From positions 62,001-126,000 of the forward strand of contig LYSV01000001.1 in the NCBI GenBank assembly GCA_001657315.1: 64,000 bases of DNA, read 5' to 3'. The notes under the pieces were generated by a model, which was not told the origin of the DNA, did no database searches, and was given only the letters and a program-made list of their open reading frames with translations. Position 1 is the stretch's first letter; every line of letters starts with the position of its first letter. Position numbers and translations under genes: made by a program. Positions 2,171 through 34,124 of the stretch are shown one piece after another. This stretch comes from Flammeovirgaceae bacterium BBD 1991-12 (GTDB lineage Bacteria; Bacteroidota; Bacteroidia; Cytophagales; Cyclobacteriaceae).

Positions 2171-3204
2171 TTCATTAGCTTAAGTGTAACATTGAAGGTA
2201 CCATTGGACCGGTTCATGATTAGCTGATGTCTCCCGGGATACAAGAGGTCCAGTCTGCGTTTTACGTTCTCCAGTCCTATTCCGGAGTCCTGCTCCATTT
2301 GCTCCGGAAACTCCCCAATGGTGTTGGAAACGCGGAATACCAGGCCGTCATTTTTTTCTGTTTCCATAGAAACCGTGATCTCACCTTTCCTTGAATAGCT
2401 GTGGCTATGCTTAAAGGCATTCTCGACAAACGGTACCAGCAGCAAAGGTTCAATCCTGTATGCCGTAATATCACGGTCATACCTGAACTCGATATTCCTG
2501 CCATTGGCCTTCGAATACCTCAGCTTTTGCAGATCGATAAAATCATTGATGAATTGCACTTCTTTCGCCAGACCTACCTGCTCCACATTGCTCTCATACA
2601 ATACATAACGCATCATATTGGAGAGCAACAGAATAGCGCGCTGGGTATTGTAGGAGTCCGTAGCTGCAAGAGCATAGATACTGTTGAGCGTATTAAAGAA
2701 AAAGTGAGGATTGATCTGCGACTTCAGGAAAGACAGCTCAGCAGACAGCTTTTCCTTTTCTGTTTTCTCTATTATTTTTCCACGCCTCTCCCAGTCCTGC
2801 AGCATCTCAAAGCTGGTACCTATGATGAGAATAAGTACAAAAAAGGGCATGAAGGGTGGAAATCTGGCCATAGGCATCTCAATATACTTATCCTGGCCCA
2901 TCCGGGCCATAAACCGTTGCCCTTCAAAGGGATGGGACATCGAAAAAACCAATGTGAATATGGCCAGTAAAACACCTACACCTGCAATGTACTGCCAGTA
3001 TTTCCTTTTCTTAAGATAGCGTGGGATCAGAAATATGACGTTGGTCAGATAGCACGGTAAAATCACCAACCAGATAAAGATCAACCTGAGCAGGGGATCG
3101 AAACCCAGATTGAATTCTTGCATAAAGGTAAAGGGGGGGATCAGGATCAACACCAGCACCAGGCAATGAAACAGTAATCGGTATTTGATATTCCCCTCCA
3201 GCAA
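2167..3204 (-). CDS. LytS-type sensor histidine kinase (His_kinase family)
   Basis: 345 residues. Four hydrophobic segments near residues 10-28, 38-60, 70-90 and 118-134 make a small membrane sensor without a large extracytoplasmic domain. The phospho-acceptor is His167 in the SQINPHFFFNTLNSIY block of the LytS/His_kinase family. The ATP-binding region shows the N-box (VPFVENAFKHS, N262) and a G-box DSGIGLENVKRRL. It would autophosphorylate and pass phosphate to the LytTR regulator encoded just downstream, with a 4-bp overlap. The gap to the kelch gene upstream is 42 bp, so the four minus-strand genes from 5558 down to 1463 may be one transcript. The sensed signal cannot be read from the sequence. 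Confidence 0.92.
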   Translation of the reverse strand: MLEGNIKYRLLFHCLVLVLILIPPFTFMQEFNLGFDPLLRLIFIWLVILPCYLTNVIFLIPRYLKKRKYWQYIAGVGVLLAIFTLVFSMSHPFEGQRFMARMGQDKYIEMPMARFPPFMPFFVLILIIGTSFEMLQDWERRGKIIEKTEKEKLSAELSFLKSQINPHFFFNTLNSIYALAATDSYNTQRAILLLSNMMRYVLYESNVEQVGLAKEVQFINDFIDLQKLRYSKANGRNIEFRYDRDITAYRIEPLLLVPFVENAFKHSHSYSRKGEITVSMETEKNDGLVFRVSNTIGEFPEQMEQDSGIGLENVKRRLDLLYPGRHQLIMNRSNGTFNVTLKLMK

Positions 3205-3246
3205 AACAGAATAAAAATTTAACTATAAAATAAACATTTTTTTCTG

Positions 3247-4269
3247 TTAGTCGTCTTCATCTTCCTCTTCAAAAGGCTCAAATTCCCATATATCATCAAA
3301 ATATGAGCTGCCTGTACGACCGGTGGCTATGAATCCTCTTTCATTGACGGAAAAGGCTACGGCGTCCCTTCTGGCCGCTCCTTCAAGTGGTGTTTTTTCA
3401 GTCCAGAAGTCTGTCACGGGATCATATTCCCACACACTGCTGGTCACGGAACCACGTACACCTGTCACTACGTAACCTAACCCATTCATTGTAAACGCAG
3501 AGGAGCTCTCCCGTATGATCTCATAGTCATCTTCTTCATCCAGATCGGTCATTCTTATCCATGGAAAACCGTCGGGATCATCCAAAATGGTGGGATCAAA
3601 GCGCCAGAAATCCAATTCAAGGGCGCCGTTGTCTGACCCGGTACCTACGTATGCAAAATTACCGATCACAAAAGCCAGAGAATTTTCACGCTTGCCTCCG
3701 CCAAGACTGGGGATCTGGGTCCATGTATCACTGGCGGGGTCATATTCCCAAAAGTCCTTTAGTGTATTTCCATCATCTCCGGTGCCCACATAGCCCTTTC
3801 CATTTACTGCAAAGGCCACGGCATTGCGCCTTGCAGAACCTCCGAAATCAGAGATCCGGGTCCATTCGTCCGTTGCCGGGTCATACTCATAAAAATCCCT
3901 GAGCTCATCGTCACCATCGAAGCCCAGACCCACATAGGCCTTATCGCCAATAGCGAAAGCCACGGCAGCGCTTCTGCCTACCCCTGGTAGACTGTCTACT
4001 CTTTGCCAGAAGTTCTGGCGAGCATCATACCTCCAGAAATCCTGGTAATATTCATCTTCATCACCATTAAAACCTGTGCCTACATAGGCAATATCTCCTA
4101 TAACAAAAGATACGGCATTTGACCTTCTGATCCCCTCGAACTCAGATTGCTCGATCCAGTTGCCCAGAAAATCATCATCTTCATCATCGCCATTGCAGGC
4201 CACAAGACCGATAAGACCCATTATGGCGGCCATGGACAATAACTTTACCTGTTTCATAATTTGTATCAT
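3247..4269 (-). CDS. Kelch-repeat (galactose-oxidase-like propeller) lipoprotein
   Basis: 340 residues. The N-terminus is a lipoprotein signal ending in LIGLVAC followed by a very acidic linker (NGDDEDDD). The rest is six kelch repeats of about 45-50 residues, each with a RR.AVAF core, an AYVGTG.DG turn, and a DFWEYDP...W blade edge, forecasting a six-bladed beta-propeller on the membrane surface. The start at 4269 overlaps the upstream stop by 4 bp; an alternative ATG at 4257 would give a shorter signal peptide. Kelch lipoproteins of this type are often found with DUF4270 proteins in Bacteroidota, as here. A binding role is more likely than an enzymatic one because no metal-ligand set is evident; the ligand is unknown. 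Confidence 0.85.
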   Translation of the reverse strand: MIQIMKQVKLLSMAAIMGLIGLVACNGDDEDDDFLGNWIEQSEFEGIRRSNAVSFVIGDIAYVGTGFNGDEDEYYQDFWRYDARQNFWQRVDSLPGVGRSAAVAFAIGDKAYVGLGFDGDDELRDFYEYDPATDEWTRISDFGGSARRNAVAFAVNGKGYVGTGDDGNTLKDFWEYDPASDTWTQIPSLGGGKRENSLAFVIGNFAYVGTGSDNGALELDFWRFDPTILDDPDGFPWIRMTDLDEEDDYEIIRESSSAFTMNGLGYVVTGVRGSVTSSVWEYDPVTDFWTEKTPLEGAARRDAVAFSVNERGFIATGRTGSSYFDDIWEFEPFEEEDEDD

Positions 4270-30407: not shown

Positions 30408-32060
30408 ATGGCAAGTAAAGTCCTGAAAGTTCATAACGACGACAATCTCATCGTGGCCCTGCAGGATTTGAAAGCAGGTGAGGAAGTCAAATGGGCCGGT
30501 GAGAGTTATCAGATGCTGACCGATGTACCCGCCAAACATAAATTCCTCAGCCATGATGTACAGCCGGGGGGTCCGGTAAAGATGTATGGCGTACTGGTAG
30601 GCAAGGCAAGCAGCCCTATCAAAAAAGGTGAGGTGGCTACCATTCAAAATGTAGAACATGCCACCCAGCAATATACGATCAACGAAAAGGAAGTAACATG
30701 GCAGGCACCGGATGTTTCCCGGTTTTCCGACCTCACCTTCAATGGCTACCACCGTTCGAATGGTAAAGTGGGGACAGCCAATTACTGGTTGGTGATCCCT
30801 CTTGTATTCTGCGAAAACCGGAATATAGAAATGATCCGTAAGGCGATGGTGGAGGAGCTGGGCTACGCCTCCGGGCAGGACTACATGCTCAATGTGAGAC
30901 AACTGGTACATCAATACCAAAGCGGCTCCGATGTGGAAATGCTGGTGCAGGAAGACATTTTGGTACCGGCTGAAGAACAGGTACACCACAGGATCTTCCC
31001 CAATGTGGATGGCATTAAGTTTCTGACCCATGACGGCGGATGCGGTGGCACACGGCAGGACAGCGACACCCTGTGTGCCCTTCTTGCCGGATACCTCAAT
31101 AATGCCAACGTAGCCGGAGCCACCGTGCTGAGCCTCGGATGCCAGAATGCACAGATCCATATCCTTGAGGAAGCCATTAAGAAAACAGATCCTGACTTTG
31201 ATAAACCCTTGTACATTCTGGGCCAGCAGGAAAGCAACTCCGAGCCGGAATTCATAGCAGAGGCGGTGAAAAAGACCTTCATAGGGCTCATGGAAGCGAA
31301 CAGGATAGAGAGAAAACCCGCCCCATTAAGTAAACTGATCGTTGGGCTTGAATGCGGAGGATCGGATGGCTTCTCAGGCATATCCGCCAACCCTGCAGTG
31401 GGTCACTTTTCAGACCTTATGGTGGCTCTTGGCGGGTCGGTGATCCTCTCTGAATTCCCGGAGCTTAACGGCGTAGAGCAGGAGCTCACAGACCGCTGTG
31501 TGGACAAAACCACAGCTGAAAAATTTGCCAGGCTCATGCATACCTACCATGACCGTGCTATTGAAGCAGGATCAGGATTCGATGCCAACCCATCTCCTGG
31601 TAATATTAAAGACGGCCTGATCACCGATGCCATGAAATCCGCAGGGGCGGCTAAAAAGGGTGGCACATCACCTATCGTGGATGTTCTGGACTATACTGAA
31701 CAGGTCAAAAAGCCTGGACTTAACCTACTCTGTACACCCGGCAATGATGTTGAATCCACAACCGGGCTGGCCGGTTCAGGCGCTACGCTGACGCTGTTCA
31801 CCACAGGACTGGGCACCCCAACCGGCAATCCGGTAAGTCCGGTGATCAAGGTTTCCAGCAATAACAAGCTGTCGGAAAGGATGCAGGATATCATTGACGT
31901 TAACGCGGGCACCGTCATTACAGGCGAGGATACCATAGACTCCAAGGGAGAGGAGATCCTTGAGTATGTTATAGCTGTTGCAAGTGGTAAGACTGCGCCG
32001 CACTCCGTACGTCTTGCACAGGATGATTTTATCCCCTGGAAGCGTGGGATATCACTGTAG
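30408..32060 (+). CDS. uxaA: Altronate dehydratase
   Basis: 550 residues, the fused full-length form. The N-terminal SAF domain (about 1-90) has NLIVALQDLKAGEEV and the AKHKFLSHDVQPGGPVKMYGV block. The C-terminal domain holds GYHRSNGKVGTANYWLVIPLV, LTHDGGCGGTRQDSDTLC with conserved Cys, GLECGGSDGFSGISANPAVG and TSPIVDVLDYTEQV. It dehydrates altronate to 2-keto-3-deoxygluconate, the galacturonate arm. The C-terminus FIPWKRGISL is the normal family end. The TAG stop (32058-32060) is formed by the first bases of the left REP palindrome. Confidence 0.96.
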   Translation: MASKVLKVHNDDNLIVALQDLKAGEEVKWAGESYQMLTDVPAKHKFLSHDVQPGGPVKMYGVLVGKASSPIKKGEVATIQNVEHATQQYTINEKEVTWQAPDVSRFSDLTFNGYHRSNGKVGTANYWLVIPLVFCENRNIEMIRKAMVEELGYASGQDYMLNVRQLVHQYQSGSDVEMLVQEDILVPAEEQVHHRIFPNVDGIKFLTHDGGCGGTRQDSDTLCALLAGYLNNANVAGATVLSLGCQNAQIHILEEAIKKTDPDFDKPLYILGQQESNSEPEFIAEAVKKTFIGLMEANRIERKPAPLSKLIVGLECGGSDGFSGISANPAVGHFSDLMVALGGSVILSEFPELNGVEQELTDRCVDKTTAEKFARLMHTYHDRAIEAGSGFDANPSPGNIKDGLITDAMKSAGAAKKGGTSPIVDVLDYTEQVKKPGLNLLCTPGNDVESTTGLAGSGATLTLFTTGLGTPTGNPVSPVIKVSSNNKLSERMQDIIDVNAGTVITGEDTIDSKGEEILEYVIAVASGKTAPHSVRLAQDDFIPWKRGISL

Positions 32061-32084
32061 GGGCAATTCATGAATTGCCCCTAC
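32057..32084. repeat. REP palindrome, left copy
   Basis: Perfect 28-bp palindrome with half-site GTAGGGGCAATTCA. It contains the TAG stop of uxaA (plus strand, 32058-32060) and the TGA stop of the transposase (minus strand, 32070-32068). Confidence 0.95.
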
Positions 32085-32631
32085 GGAAAGACTCCAGAAA
32101 TCTCTTCAGTGTAGCAGGGTCATAATTTCTGGCATTTAACACGTCCACTTCCCAATTGTCCGGATTACCCTCAATGTAGTAGTATATGCTTTCCAGCTCG
32201 TTTTCATTTCTGATCACCCGATCATAATAATTCCTTTGCCATTGAAAAGGTCGCCCTTTTCCAATATTTTCGAAATAATCATTAATGGCCTTGCTGGTCA
32301 GCATTTTAAATTTGCCGATGAGTTTAGGTACCAGCATTCTGCGCCTGTCCTTTATATTGCTATGATCTATCTCCTTGTGAGTATCATCAGTGATGTCAAT
32401 GATGCAATGAAAGTGATTTGGCATCAGAACTTGATGTATTGAATGCGATCCTTCATCAAATAAGGTTTTCCAGAGCCCTTCAACAATGACTCTGAGGTGT
32501 AATTCCTGAGAGGAACAATTATGAGGAAGACCAAAATAATGCTTCCTGTCTTTTGTTACAATGGTGATAAAGTACTGGCCGGGGGATGAGTAATCATGGA
32601 GGGGGAGTCGGTTCGATTTTCGTTGTTTCAT
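32068..32631 (-). CDS. REP-associated tyrosine transposase (RAYT, Y1_Tnp family)
   Basis: 187 residues from the ATG at 32631; a longer TTG start at 32649 would begin inside the right palindrome and is less likely. HUH single-strand transposase of the Y1 family: NRLPLHDYSSPGQYFITIV at the N-terminus, VLMPNHFHCIIDI with the HxH metal motif near residue 80, and RNYYDRVIRNENELESIYYYI with the catalytic Tyr near residue 150, then GNPDNWEVD. RAYTs cut and rejoin single-stranded REP hairpins of their own type. The last residues RRGNS and the TGA stop are encoded by the left palindrome itself. Confidence 0.94.
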   Translation of the reverse strand: MKQRKSNRLPLHDYSSPGQYFITIVTKDRKHYFGLPHNCSSQELHLRVIVEGLWKTLFDEGSHSIHQVLMPNHFHCIIDITDDTHKEIDHSNIKDRRRMLVPKLIGKFKMLTSKAINDYFENIGKGRPFQWQRNYYDRVIRNENELESIYYYIEGNPDNWEVDVLNARNYDPATLKRFLESFRRGNS

Positions 32632-32639
32632 ATCCAAAT

Positions 32640-32667
32640 GTAGGGGCAATTCATGAATTGCCCCTAC
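32640..32667. repeat. REP palindrome, right copy
   Basis: Identical to the copy at 32057. It contains the TAG stop of uxaB (minus strand, 32666-32664). Confidence 0.95.
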
Positions 32668-34124
32668 ATGAGATCCTGTAATAGCCTGTCTATACCCTTC
32701 TCCTGGATCTTCACCACCTTGTCACTCACAGATTGAATGAGTCCTGGAACTTTTGTAAGGTCAGTGGACCAGAACTCTTCCTTACTGAGGATCACCTCCA
32801 CCAGATTATGAACGGAGCCAGCTGATCCGTCATGGTTTTTCCACAGGGAACTCAACAATTCCAATACCCTGGGTTCATCCTTCAGAGGTATTTCCTCACC
32901 CGAGCGCTGTCCTTTGTAAAAGCTGATCAAGGCTGCTAAGGCCGTTAGCAGCAACTCAGGTAATTTCCCTTCTTTTTCATAGTAACCCAAAATAGAGGGA
33001 AGCACCCTCGTCTTGAATTTGGAAAAGGAATTCAGCGAAATAGTAATGAGCTCATGCTTTATGGAGGGGTTTCTAAAACGATCCATGATCTCACCGGCAT
33101 ATTGCTCCAGCTCATCCCGGTCTCCTCCCAGCGAAGGGATGATCTCATTGAAAACAGCCTTGTGGACAAATTTGCCTACCAGCTCATTTTCAATAGCTTC
33201 CTTCACAAAATCGAGTCCGTAAAGATACGCCACGGGCACCATAGAGGTGTGTGCACCGTTCAGTATCCTCACCTTCCGGGTACGATAGTAGTCGAGGTCA
33301 TCCGTAAATATAACGTTAAGCCCCGCCTGCTCTGTGGGAAGTTCCTCCCGGATCCACTCCGGTCCTTCAATGACCCAAAGGTGGAAAATTTCGCCTTCTA
33401 CAATTAGCTCATCGCGGTAGCCCAGTTCATGCCAGTATTCTTCCACTTTTTCTCCGGGATATCCCGGAACGATCCTGTCCACAAGCGTATTGCAGAAAAC
33501 AACCTTCTCCTTAAGCCAGGCACTGAAATTCTCTTCCAGACCCCATAGCTTGATATATTGTGTTATGGTCTCTCTGAGCTTTACTCCGTTTTTGTCAATA
33601 AGCTCACAGGGCAGGACGATAAGCCTGTCACATTCCGGCAACGCCCTGTACCGGTAAAAGAGGAACTGGGTTAACTTACCCGGAAAAGATGAGGCCGGCT
33701 GATCATTCATCTTATCTTCAGGATTAAAATGGATACCTGCCTCAGTAGTGTTGGAGATAATGAATTTCAGGTCAGGGTTCAGCGCTTCATCAAAATAAAC
33801 CTGTGGCTCTTCGTACGGATCTACAGCCTTTTGAATGACATCGATCAGAGACCGTTGCGCAATAAACTTGCCTCCCCTGATCCCGTTGAGATACAGATTA
33901 TACAAACCGTCCTGTGCGTTCAGCTTGTTTACCAGCCCGGAAGTTATGGGCTGTATCACGGTGACCCCAGCCTCGAAACCTGCTTTTTGGTTCATTTCGC
34001 AGACCATCCAGTCTACAAAGGCCCGCAGAAAATTCCCTTCGCCGAACTGAAGGATCTTTGTTCTCAGATGATCTTGCCCATTGGAAAGTTTGCTTCTGTT
34101 TAATTGACCGGATGGTTGCATCAT
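32664..34124 (-). CDS. uxaB: Tagaturonate reductase
   Basis: 486 residues of the mannitol dehydrogenase family. It reduces tagaturonate to altronate with NADH. Seen: ILQFGEGNFLRAFVDWMVCEMN as Rossmann-like N-terminus, ISNTTEAGI, VLPCELIDKNGV, NTLVDRIVPGYP, and the family catalytic block KVRILNGAHTSMVPVAYLYG near residue 285. The start could be the first or second Met; neither changes the domain. With UxaC and UxaA it completes the galacturonate arm. Its stop is supplied by the right REP palindrome. A 207-bp gap separates it from the esterase gene upstream on the same strand. Confidence 0.94.
   Translation of the reverse strand: MMQPSGQLNRSKLSNGQDHLRTKILQFGEGNFLRAFVDWMVCEMNQKAGFEAGVTVIQPITSGLVNKLNAQDGLYNLYLNGIRGGKFIAQRSLIDVIQKAVDPYEEPQVYFDEALNPDLKFIISNTTEAGIHFNPEDKMNDQPASSFPGKLTQFLFYRYRALPECDRLIVLPCELIDKNGVKLRETITQYIKLWGLEENFSAWLKEKVVFCNTLVDRIVPGYPGEKVEEYWHELGYRDELIVEGEIFHLWVIEGPEWIREELPTEQAGLNVIFTDDLDYYRTRKVRILNGAHTSMVPVAYLYGLDFVKEAIENELVGKFVHKAVFNEIIPSLGGDRDELEQYAGEIMDRFRNPSIKHELITISLNSFSKFKTRVLPSILGYYEKEGKLPELLLTALAALISFYKGQRSGEEIPLKDEPRVLELLSSLWKNHDGSAGSVHNLVEVILSKEEFWSTDLTKVPGLIQSVSDKVVKIQEKGIDRLLQDLM

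Follow-up and report, generated by a model that had tools for sequence, protein, structure and literature searches.

Known systems and the present element

The closest described relatives of the element reported here are the TIRYT/TIRtron elements (Di Nocera et al. 2013, PMC3733652). In these, terminal inverted repeats (TIRs), some of them partly or wholly self-complementary, enclose a RAYT-like HUH transposase, and the termini may overlap the transposase gene, as they do here. The same text indicates that only some TIRs share a GGGGWSAS motif, and the repeat of the present element (GGGGCAAT) lacks it. The element further differs in that one 28-bp palindrome, identical across phyla, carries the stop codons of both neighbouring genes and of the transposase.

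GTAG REPs and REPtrons (PMC3733652, PMC2817692, PMC8266576) are also similar and share with this element a GTAG foot, an HUH transposase, and a location near 3' ends. However, in a GTAG REP one end of the stem carries the tag in unpaired form, whereas GTAG here is base-paired with CTAC at the foot of the stem. Additionally, REPtrons usually have more than 100 copies (PMC2817692), in contrast to the handful of palindromes reported below. IS200/IS605 elements have a Y1 HUH transposase domain and hairpin ends in common with this element, but the one NCBIfam match of its transposase is to the REP-associated family, below the cut-off. Rickettsia RPE and intragenic REPs (described in PMC3733652) are likewise palindromes read in frame inside protein genes, although their sequences are different and the present palindrome also lies inside RAYT genes.

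That REPs favour the 3' ends of genes, and that the termini of GTAG REPs often provide a TAG stop codon to flanking ORFs, is stated in PMC3733652. Thus, the core statement that GTAG palindromes give TAG to their neighbours was already published in 2013, and in the literature compared, prior work mostly concerns REP location rather than native-stop comparison. A literature search for VGAIHELPL, GAIHELPL, or the palindrome core returned no match. Added here are the exact native-stop position, a RAYT stop within the palindrome in two lineages, paired changes of the palindrome arms, palindrome identity across phyla, and palindromes inside RAYT genes.

Organization of the uxaA-uxaB junction

The window (the whole 64,000-nucleotide stretch of DNA analysed) contains the following features at a junction between two convergent genes.

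30408-32060, plus strand: uxaA-like altronate dehydratase; ORF with Pfam GD_AH_C, GD_AH_second, and SAF
32057-32084, no strand assigned: left palindrome GTAGGGGCAATTCATGAATTGCCCCTAC, 28 bp, perfect; gives the last residues of the RAYT and a central TGA on the minus strand
32068-32631, minus strand: RAYT (REP-associated tyrosine / HUH transposase), 187 aa; intact ORF with Pfam Y1_Tnp, ending RRGNS-stop
32640-32667, no strand assigned: right palindrome GTAGGGGCAATTCATGAATTGCCCCTAC, 28 bp, perfect, same as left; gives the uxaB stop on the minus strand
32664-34124, minus strand: uxaB-like reductase of the Mannitol_dh family; ORF with Pfam Mannitol_dh and Mannitol_dh_C

An earlier note had claimed that the two identical palindromes supply the TAG of uxaA, the TAG of uxaB, and the TGA and last residues of the RAYT, and the coordinates confirm this. 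The uxaA gene ends TCA CTG TAG, with its TAG (32058-32060) at positions 2-4 of the left palindrome, and uxaB ends CTC ATG TAG, with its TAG (32664-32666) from the right palindrome. The RAYT ends CGT AGG GGC AAT TCA TGA, with its TGA (32068-32070) inside the left palindrome. The phase proposed for the two neighbours (CTG-TAG at uxaA and ATG-TAG at uxaB) can likewise be read in the sequence. The RAYT likely starts at the ATG at 32629-32631, within a listed ORF that opens with TTG at 32649.

If the T in front is included, the two palindrome copies form a 29-nt direct repeat. The repeat is its own complement, and thus direct and inverted orientations are indistinguishable, with the RAYT flanked by two copies in either case. 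Exact matches to the half-site occur at four places in the 8.6-Mb genome, all of them in these two palindromes, and four near-identical palindromes are present elsewhere (six in total, by the patterns searched). As RNA, the 28-mer folds at -18.5 kcal/mol, which was equalled by none of 200 shuffles.

The RAYT matches the Y1_Tnp profile (PF01797) at 26.9 bits, above the cut-off of 23, and thus has the HUH domain; its sequence contains HFH and tyrosine motifs, which are presumably its HUH/Y1 motifs. Its sole NCBIfam match, NF047646 (REP_Tyr_transpos), scores 56 bits, below the curated cut-off of 80, and three other RAYTs also fall below this cut-off (59, 74.2, and 67.3 bits). IS200/IS605 is absent among its NCBIfam matches at E 0.001, and a search against PDB gave no match at E 1. 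One match to the RAYT was found in its own genome, such that it is not a multi-copy insertion sequence. With one close RAYT copy and six palindromes in the genome, current activity of the cassette is unproven. A Y1_Tnp profile search of the genome's contigs returned seven other matches (contigs C206, C256, C25, C20, C267, C57, and C35; L005-L011) and missed the window RAYT itself. Overall, the element is a RAYT/TIRYT cassette, in which a single HUH single-strand transposase gene is flanked on each side by a copy of its own 28-bp palindrome.

The native uxaA stop and related cassettes

A survey of 15 genomes of the genus yielded 13 copies of UxaA in 10 genomes. All 13 end in ..WKRG[I/V]SL with a stop at the same codon, which is TAA in nine and TAG in four (the window, G012, one of two G013 copies, and G009), and 11 of the 13 genes are without a palindrome. 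Because the stop is shared with the palindrome-free copies, comparison of these sequences shows that the left palindrome's TAG coincides with the native uxaA stop and that UxaA is neither shortened nor lengthened. The case that would speak against the earlier note, an original stop further out before insertion, was therefore not seen for uxaA. The window UxaB (KGIDRLLQDLM-stop) is about three codons longer than those of G012 (KGIAKLLL-stop) and G013 (EGVSGLLK-stop); UxaB tails are poorly conserved, and thus the native uxaB stop is not fixed. Among the 15 genomes, no insert-free junction of convergent uxaA and uxaB genes was found.

The same insertion is present in G012 (UxaA 85% identical), divided between contigs C54 and C32. 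Its uxaA side reads CTG-TAG within GTAGTGGCGATTCATGAATCGCCACTAC, and its uxaB side reads CTA-TAG, where the palindrome copy has both feet as ATAG/CTAT and one base missing from one arm. The G012 RAYT has internal stops and is broken by the contig ends. The cassette was thus in the uxaA-uxaB junction before the window species and its sister species G012 separated. On the G012 uxaA side, the coding CCCT outside the palindrome is mirrored as AGGG within the element. Since the end of uxaA is constrained by the protein, this mirror most likely arose after insertion.

A more diverged cassette with the same layout is present in G011, where a RAYT 57% identical to that of the window lies between palindromes GTTAGGATGATTCATGAATCATCCTAAC and GTAAGGATGATTCATGAATCATCCTTAC. 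Their arms differ from those of the window palindromes, their centre is the same (GATTCATGAATC), and GTTA/GTAA stands in place of the GTAG foot. The central TGA is likewise the in-frame stop of the G011 RAYT (..SKDDS-stop), and therefore a RAYT stop inside its own palindrome is common to the two lineages. The palindromes of the window lineage have changed on both arms together, with the one-base loss in the G012 uxaB-side copy being a counter-case to arms that are kept alike.

Other palindromes in the genus

By the patterns searched, the palindrome family occurs in two of the 15 genus genomes, with six copies in the window genome and 16 in G012; the diverged G011 pair lies outside these patterns. 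In the window genome, there are ten outer sides when the two RAYT-facing sides are set aside, and those at uxaA and uxaB represent one insertion. Four of the ten supply TAG (to uxaA, uxaB, a MacB/FtsX permease, and an OmpR-type regulator), and one supplies TGA (to a methyltransferase, ..CRGDS-stop). Within this genome, copies thus look non-random with respect to stops, as had been predicted, with two of the four TAGs belonging to one insertion.

Comparable stops were found at the other loci. The regulator ends FVLEVE-TAG in the palindrome, and its best match in G003 (67% identical, matched by sequence rather than by synteny) ends FVLEVK-TAA at the same codon, which would make it a second native-stop case. 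The permease ends NPVESLRYE-TAG in the palindrome and an adjacent paralogue ends NPADILRYE-TAG without one, a weaker candidate for a third case. A paralogue of the methyltransferase in the window genome (53%) ends ..YFCSRQE-stop at about the same length. The palindrome stop is therefore at the native position for one gene (uxaA), and probably for others in this genome.

The 16 palindromes of G012 have 32 sides, two of them inside the split cassette. Clear use of TAG is seen in the uxa pair alone, which is shared with the window genome. A thioredoxin gene and a facing 77-aa ORF both end NGDS-TGA in a palindrome, and three further short ORFs (73, 85, and 93 aa) that may not be genes end inside palindromes. 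On the remaining sides, the stops of ORFs of at least 70 codons begin at least 6 nt upstream, or none is listed within 300 nt. The window genome has the same thioredoxin gene pair (facing ORF 60%) without a palindrome; there, thioredoxin ends NQG-TAG, and the two genes overlap at their own stops. The thioredoxins of G001, G014, and G007 are also without a palindrome, with no clear match to the facing ORF at those loci. The G012 thioredoxin palindrome therefore appears to be a gain at an empty site. Taken together, the native stops, the sister-species insertion, and this one empty site are comparative evidence that a RAYT palindrome can end a gene while the protein is unchanged. Separately, two G012 palindromes lie beside similar short translated stretches (..VKNRI.NA.. 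and ..PVILV.NENDL; L188 at about 2828-3082 and L190 at about 3067-3348), which are perhaps a repeat element.

Proposed insertion and survival of the cassette

The best explanation of the locus, with a probability of about 0.7, is that a RAYT/TIRYT cassette landed with its left edge on the native uxaA stop and survived where it was least harmful, and that its arms were later altered by template switching. In biochemical work, other TnpA-REPs cut at CT near the hairpin, and GTAG is important to them, probably as a guide (PMC8266576). By analogy, the GTAG foot here may be a recognition or guide motif. Insertion at the CT of the last UxaA leucine codon (CTN) would then rebuild CTG-TAG from the element's TGTAG, leaving the protein unchanged. 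Insertions would persist where harm is least, namely just past genes, on stop codons, and in an open frame.

Flanking bases were compared among copies of the exact 28-mer in other genomes. Among 81 listed copies without grown flanks, T precedes GTAG on at least one side in 63 and on both sides in 13. CT precedes GTAG on 26 of 220 sides in the matches listed, compared to a background of 5.6%, and AT (31) and CC (22) are enriched as well. The base before GTAG is A in the regulator and permease copies, and AT is found at uxaB. As a result, insertion at CT is put forward as an inference that fits uxaA, but not the regulator or permease.

Exact copies of the palindrome in other genomes

The exact 28-mer was found in at least 115 stretches of named genomes, with at least 118 copies. 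By record title, its hosts are cyanobacteria, Nitrospirae, Planctomycetota, Zixibacteria, Omnitrophica, Bacteroidetes, Balneolaceae, Spirochaetota, Anaerolineaceae, and others. Many of these records are metagenome-assembled, and thus single placements may be wrong; isolates are included as well (Nostoc, Tychonema, Gracilimonas, and Balneola). The 28-mer is rare in the window's own class, being present in three of 395 sampled genomes, and in one of these (G184) a 144-aa ORF ends at the palindrome TAG (L233). In 112 copies listed, no target-site duplication of at least 3 bp was found. Among the 115 non-repeat copies in the matches listed, 54 are between unidirectional ORFs, 23 between convergent ORFs, and 8 between divergent ORFs (85 intergenic copies), while 20 are inside ORFs and 10 are at stretch ends.

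There is about an even chance that these positions are a residue of selection, with near-random insertion followed by loss of copies that cut genes. The 20 of 115 listed copies inside ORFs all use the open frame, compared to 76% of random positions being inside ORFs, although this comparison is biased in that copies in the other two frames split an ORF and are counted elsewhere. In-frame copies in SelA, ketoacyl synthase, P-type ATPase, arginyl-tRNA synthetase, YchF, and an Eco57I-type gene are consistent with such selection. So are an MPG glycosylase (L078), an LMW phosphatase (L061), and a histidine kinase (L030), each of which ends in the palindrome with its Pfam domain complete to near the end. 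However, three native-stop cases among the five insertion loci of the window genome seem above what random landing near gene ends would produce, as a matter of judgement rather than of a computed test.

Reading frames of the palindrome

Read from its first base, the palindrome encodes VGAIHELPL on both strands, and both remaining frames contain stops. Only the VGAIHELPL frame is therefore available to a copy inside an ORF, and a palindrome has three outcomes: it is readable, it supplies TAG, or it supplies GNS/GDS-TGA. In the matches listed there are 28 in-frame readings of at least 140 codons in 27 ORFs, some of which are surely not genes. Ten of these ORFs were compared with Pfam, and nine have families (among them the six named above, with the Eco57I-type gene matching a methylase, and a subtilase), with none for L071. 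In the transaldolase (L041) and a ferredoxin-like protein (L054), the palindrome is outside the matched domain. Seven more were compared with NCBIfam; three are RAYTs, and no family was found for L131 and L036. In L080 (CopA-like) and L121 (NuoL-like), the palindrome comes at codon 5 or 4 and may precede the true start. The P-type ATPase alignment contains a second, altered copy (VGAIHESPL), and in YchF the palindrome is within a stretch of variable length. The Eco57I-type methylase gene (L068, 3273-7106) has two exact palindromes in frame.

A RAYT relative is present in five of the 115 listed stretches. In three of them (L068, 2587-3246; L075, 7178-7750; and L102, 6715-7398), the exact palindrome follows the HUH motif closely and in frame; a variant palindrome occupies this place in L046, and L025 has none, as is also the case for the window RAYT. 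In G072, RAYT copies of L232 and L234 contain the palindrome in frame (around 1501). The L234 copies are in tandem, with one further copy lacking the palindrome, and two of the G072 copies contain stops. RAYTs with an internal palindrome come from several phyla; they were found through the palindrome, and thus their frequencies are biased.

These outcomes would be those of a frame-proof mobile unit that offers, on either strand, a readable frame, a TAG at its foot, or RGNS/RGDS-TGA after four residues, although this is a speculative and rather doubtful reading. If correct, any landing would either add a few residues in frame or end the reading frame promptly and cleanly. It would explain the spread over many phyla with variants that mostly keep the pattern, as well as the in-frame copies in housekeeping and RAYT genes and the neighbours ended at native stops. 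The open frame was rejected as proof of adaptation, since among random 28-bp palindromes with a GTAG foot, 78% leave that frame open and 17% combine this with a stop in the third frame. In one G011 palindrome, the VGAIHELPL frame is interrupted by a stop. The occurrence of an exact 28-bp palindrome in unrelated phyla, in frame in conserved genes, makes its spread and tolerance testable.

Relation to gene ends

Sides of the exact copies were scored for ORFs that have 80 codons or more or run off the end of the stretch. Among the 232 sides in the matches listed, an ORF ends at the TAG on four and at the central TGA on seven; gene-end stops as a general rule, as might be drawn from the earlier note, are thus not borne out elsewhere. 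Pfam domains were sought in six of these 11 ORFs. Three are the domain-retaining proteins described above, and L098 may be cut by the palindrome, because its B12-binding domain is matched only to position 97 of 121; no Pfam family was found for L116 and L070. The 28-mer copies favour 3' ends, but exact supply of the stop is the exception.

Active targeting of stop codons or 3' gene ends by the transposase, for instance of GTAG or CT-TAG at stops, is unlikely, and several observations nevertheless point towards it. In the window genome, TAG is supplied on four of ten outer sides and TGA on one, with three TAG cases at the native codon as judged from relatives or a paralogue. Elsewhere, the 60 nt upstream of the 232 sides hold 51 ORF ends, or 0.85 per position, compared to the four TAG ends (P about 0.01, one uncorrected test), and 23 of the 85 listed intergenic copies are in convergent gaps, compared to 15% of random intergenic positions (P 0.003). 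On the other hand, those four are the only listed sides elsewhere to use TAG, the one clear TAG use among the 16 G012 palindromes is the shared uxa pair, and enrichment at 3' ends is equally expected from selection against damage. The description of an HUH element settling exactly at gene ends agrees with the window genome and is partly explained there, whereas exact stops are rare elsewhere and the suggested targeting is unproven.

It is similarly improbable that a solo palindrome first served as a shared stop and hairpin of uxaA and uxaB, and that the RAYT and second palindrome were added later by recombination. Solo palindromes exist in the window genome and in G012, and the cassette has a stop at each outer edge, the arrangement expected of one palindrome between facing genes; however, no solo palindrome was found at this junction among the 15 genus genomes. 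Least probable is a role of the palindromes in terminating transcription of the convergent genes in both directions, since, despite strong hairpins (-24.2 and -25.8 kcal/mol in a 61-nt context), no T-run follows them and the three terminator-like sites in a scan of 31900-32800 are away from both palindromes, leaving the proposal that the hairpin ends both transcripts unsupported. A search of Rfam with 31500-33200 gave one match, far below the gathering score and away from the palindromes.

Symmetry of the palindrome arms

Template switching between hairpin arms can copy one arm onto the other. For the cassette that landed on the native uxaA stop, later switching of this kind would keep the arms alike and let symmetry grow into the flanking bases. 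Flanks extend the inverted symmetry by at least 3 bp in 30 of 112 listed copies, compared to 2.9% in shuffles, and these 30 are not all independent, as several share flanks as subfamilies. The extension could instead come from landing in pre-existing hairpins or hairpin loops, but in G012 the mirrored bases repeat the constrained uxaA end within the element, pointing to growth after insertion. Differing flanks extend the symmetry by about 8 to 15 bp in L113 (4287), L125 (3471), L123 (5239), L133 (6285), and L129 (5790). Some of the extended copies, L113, L125, and L123 among them, look like intrinsic terminators whose loop contains the palindrome.
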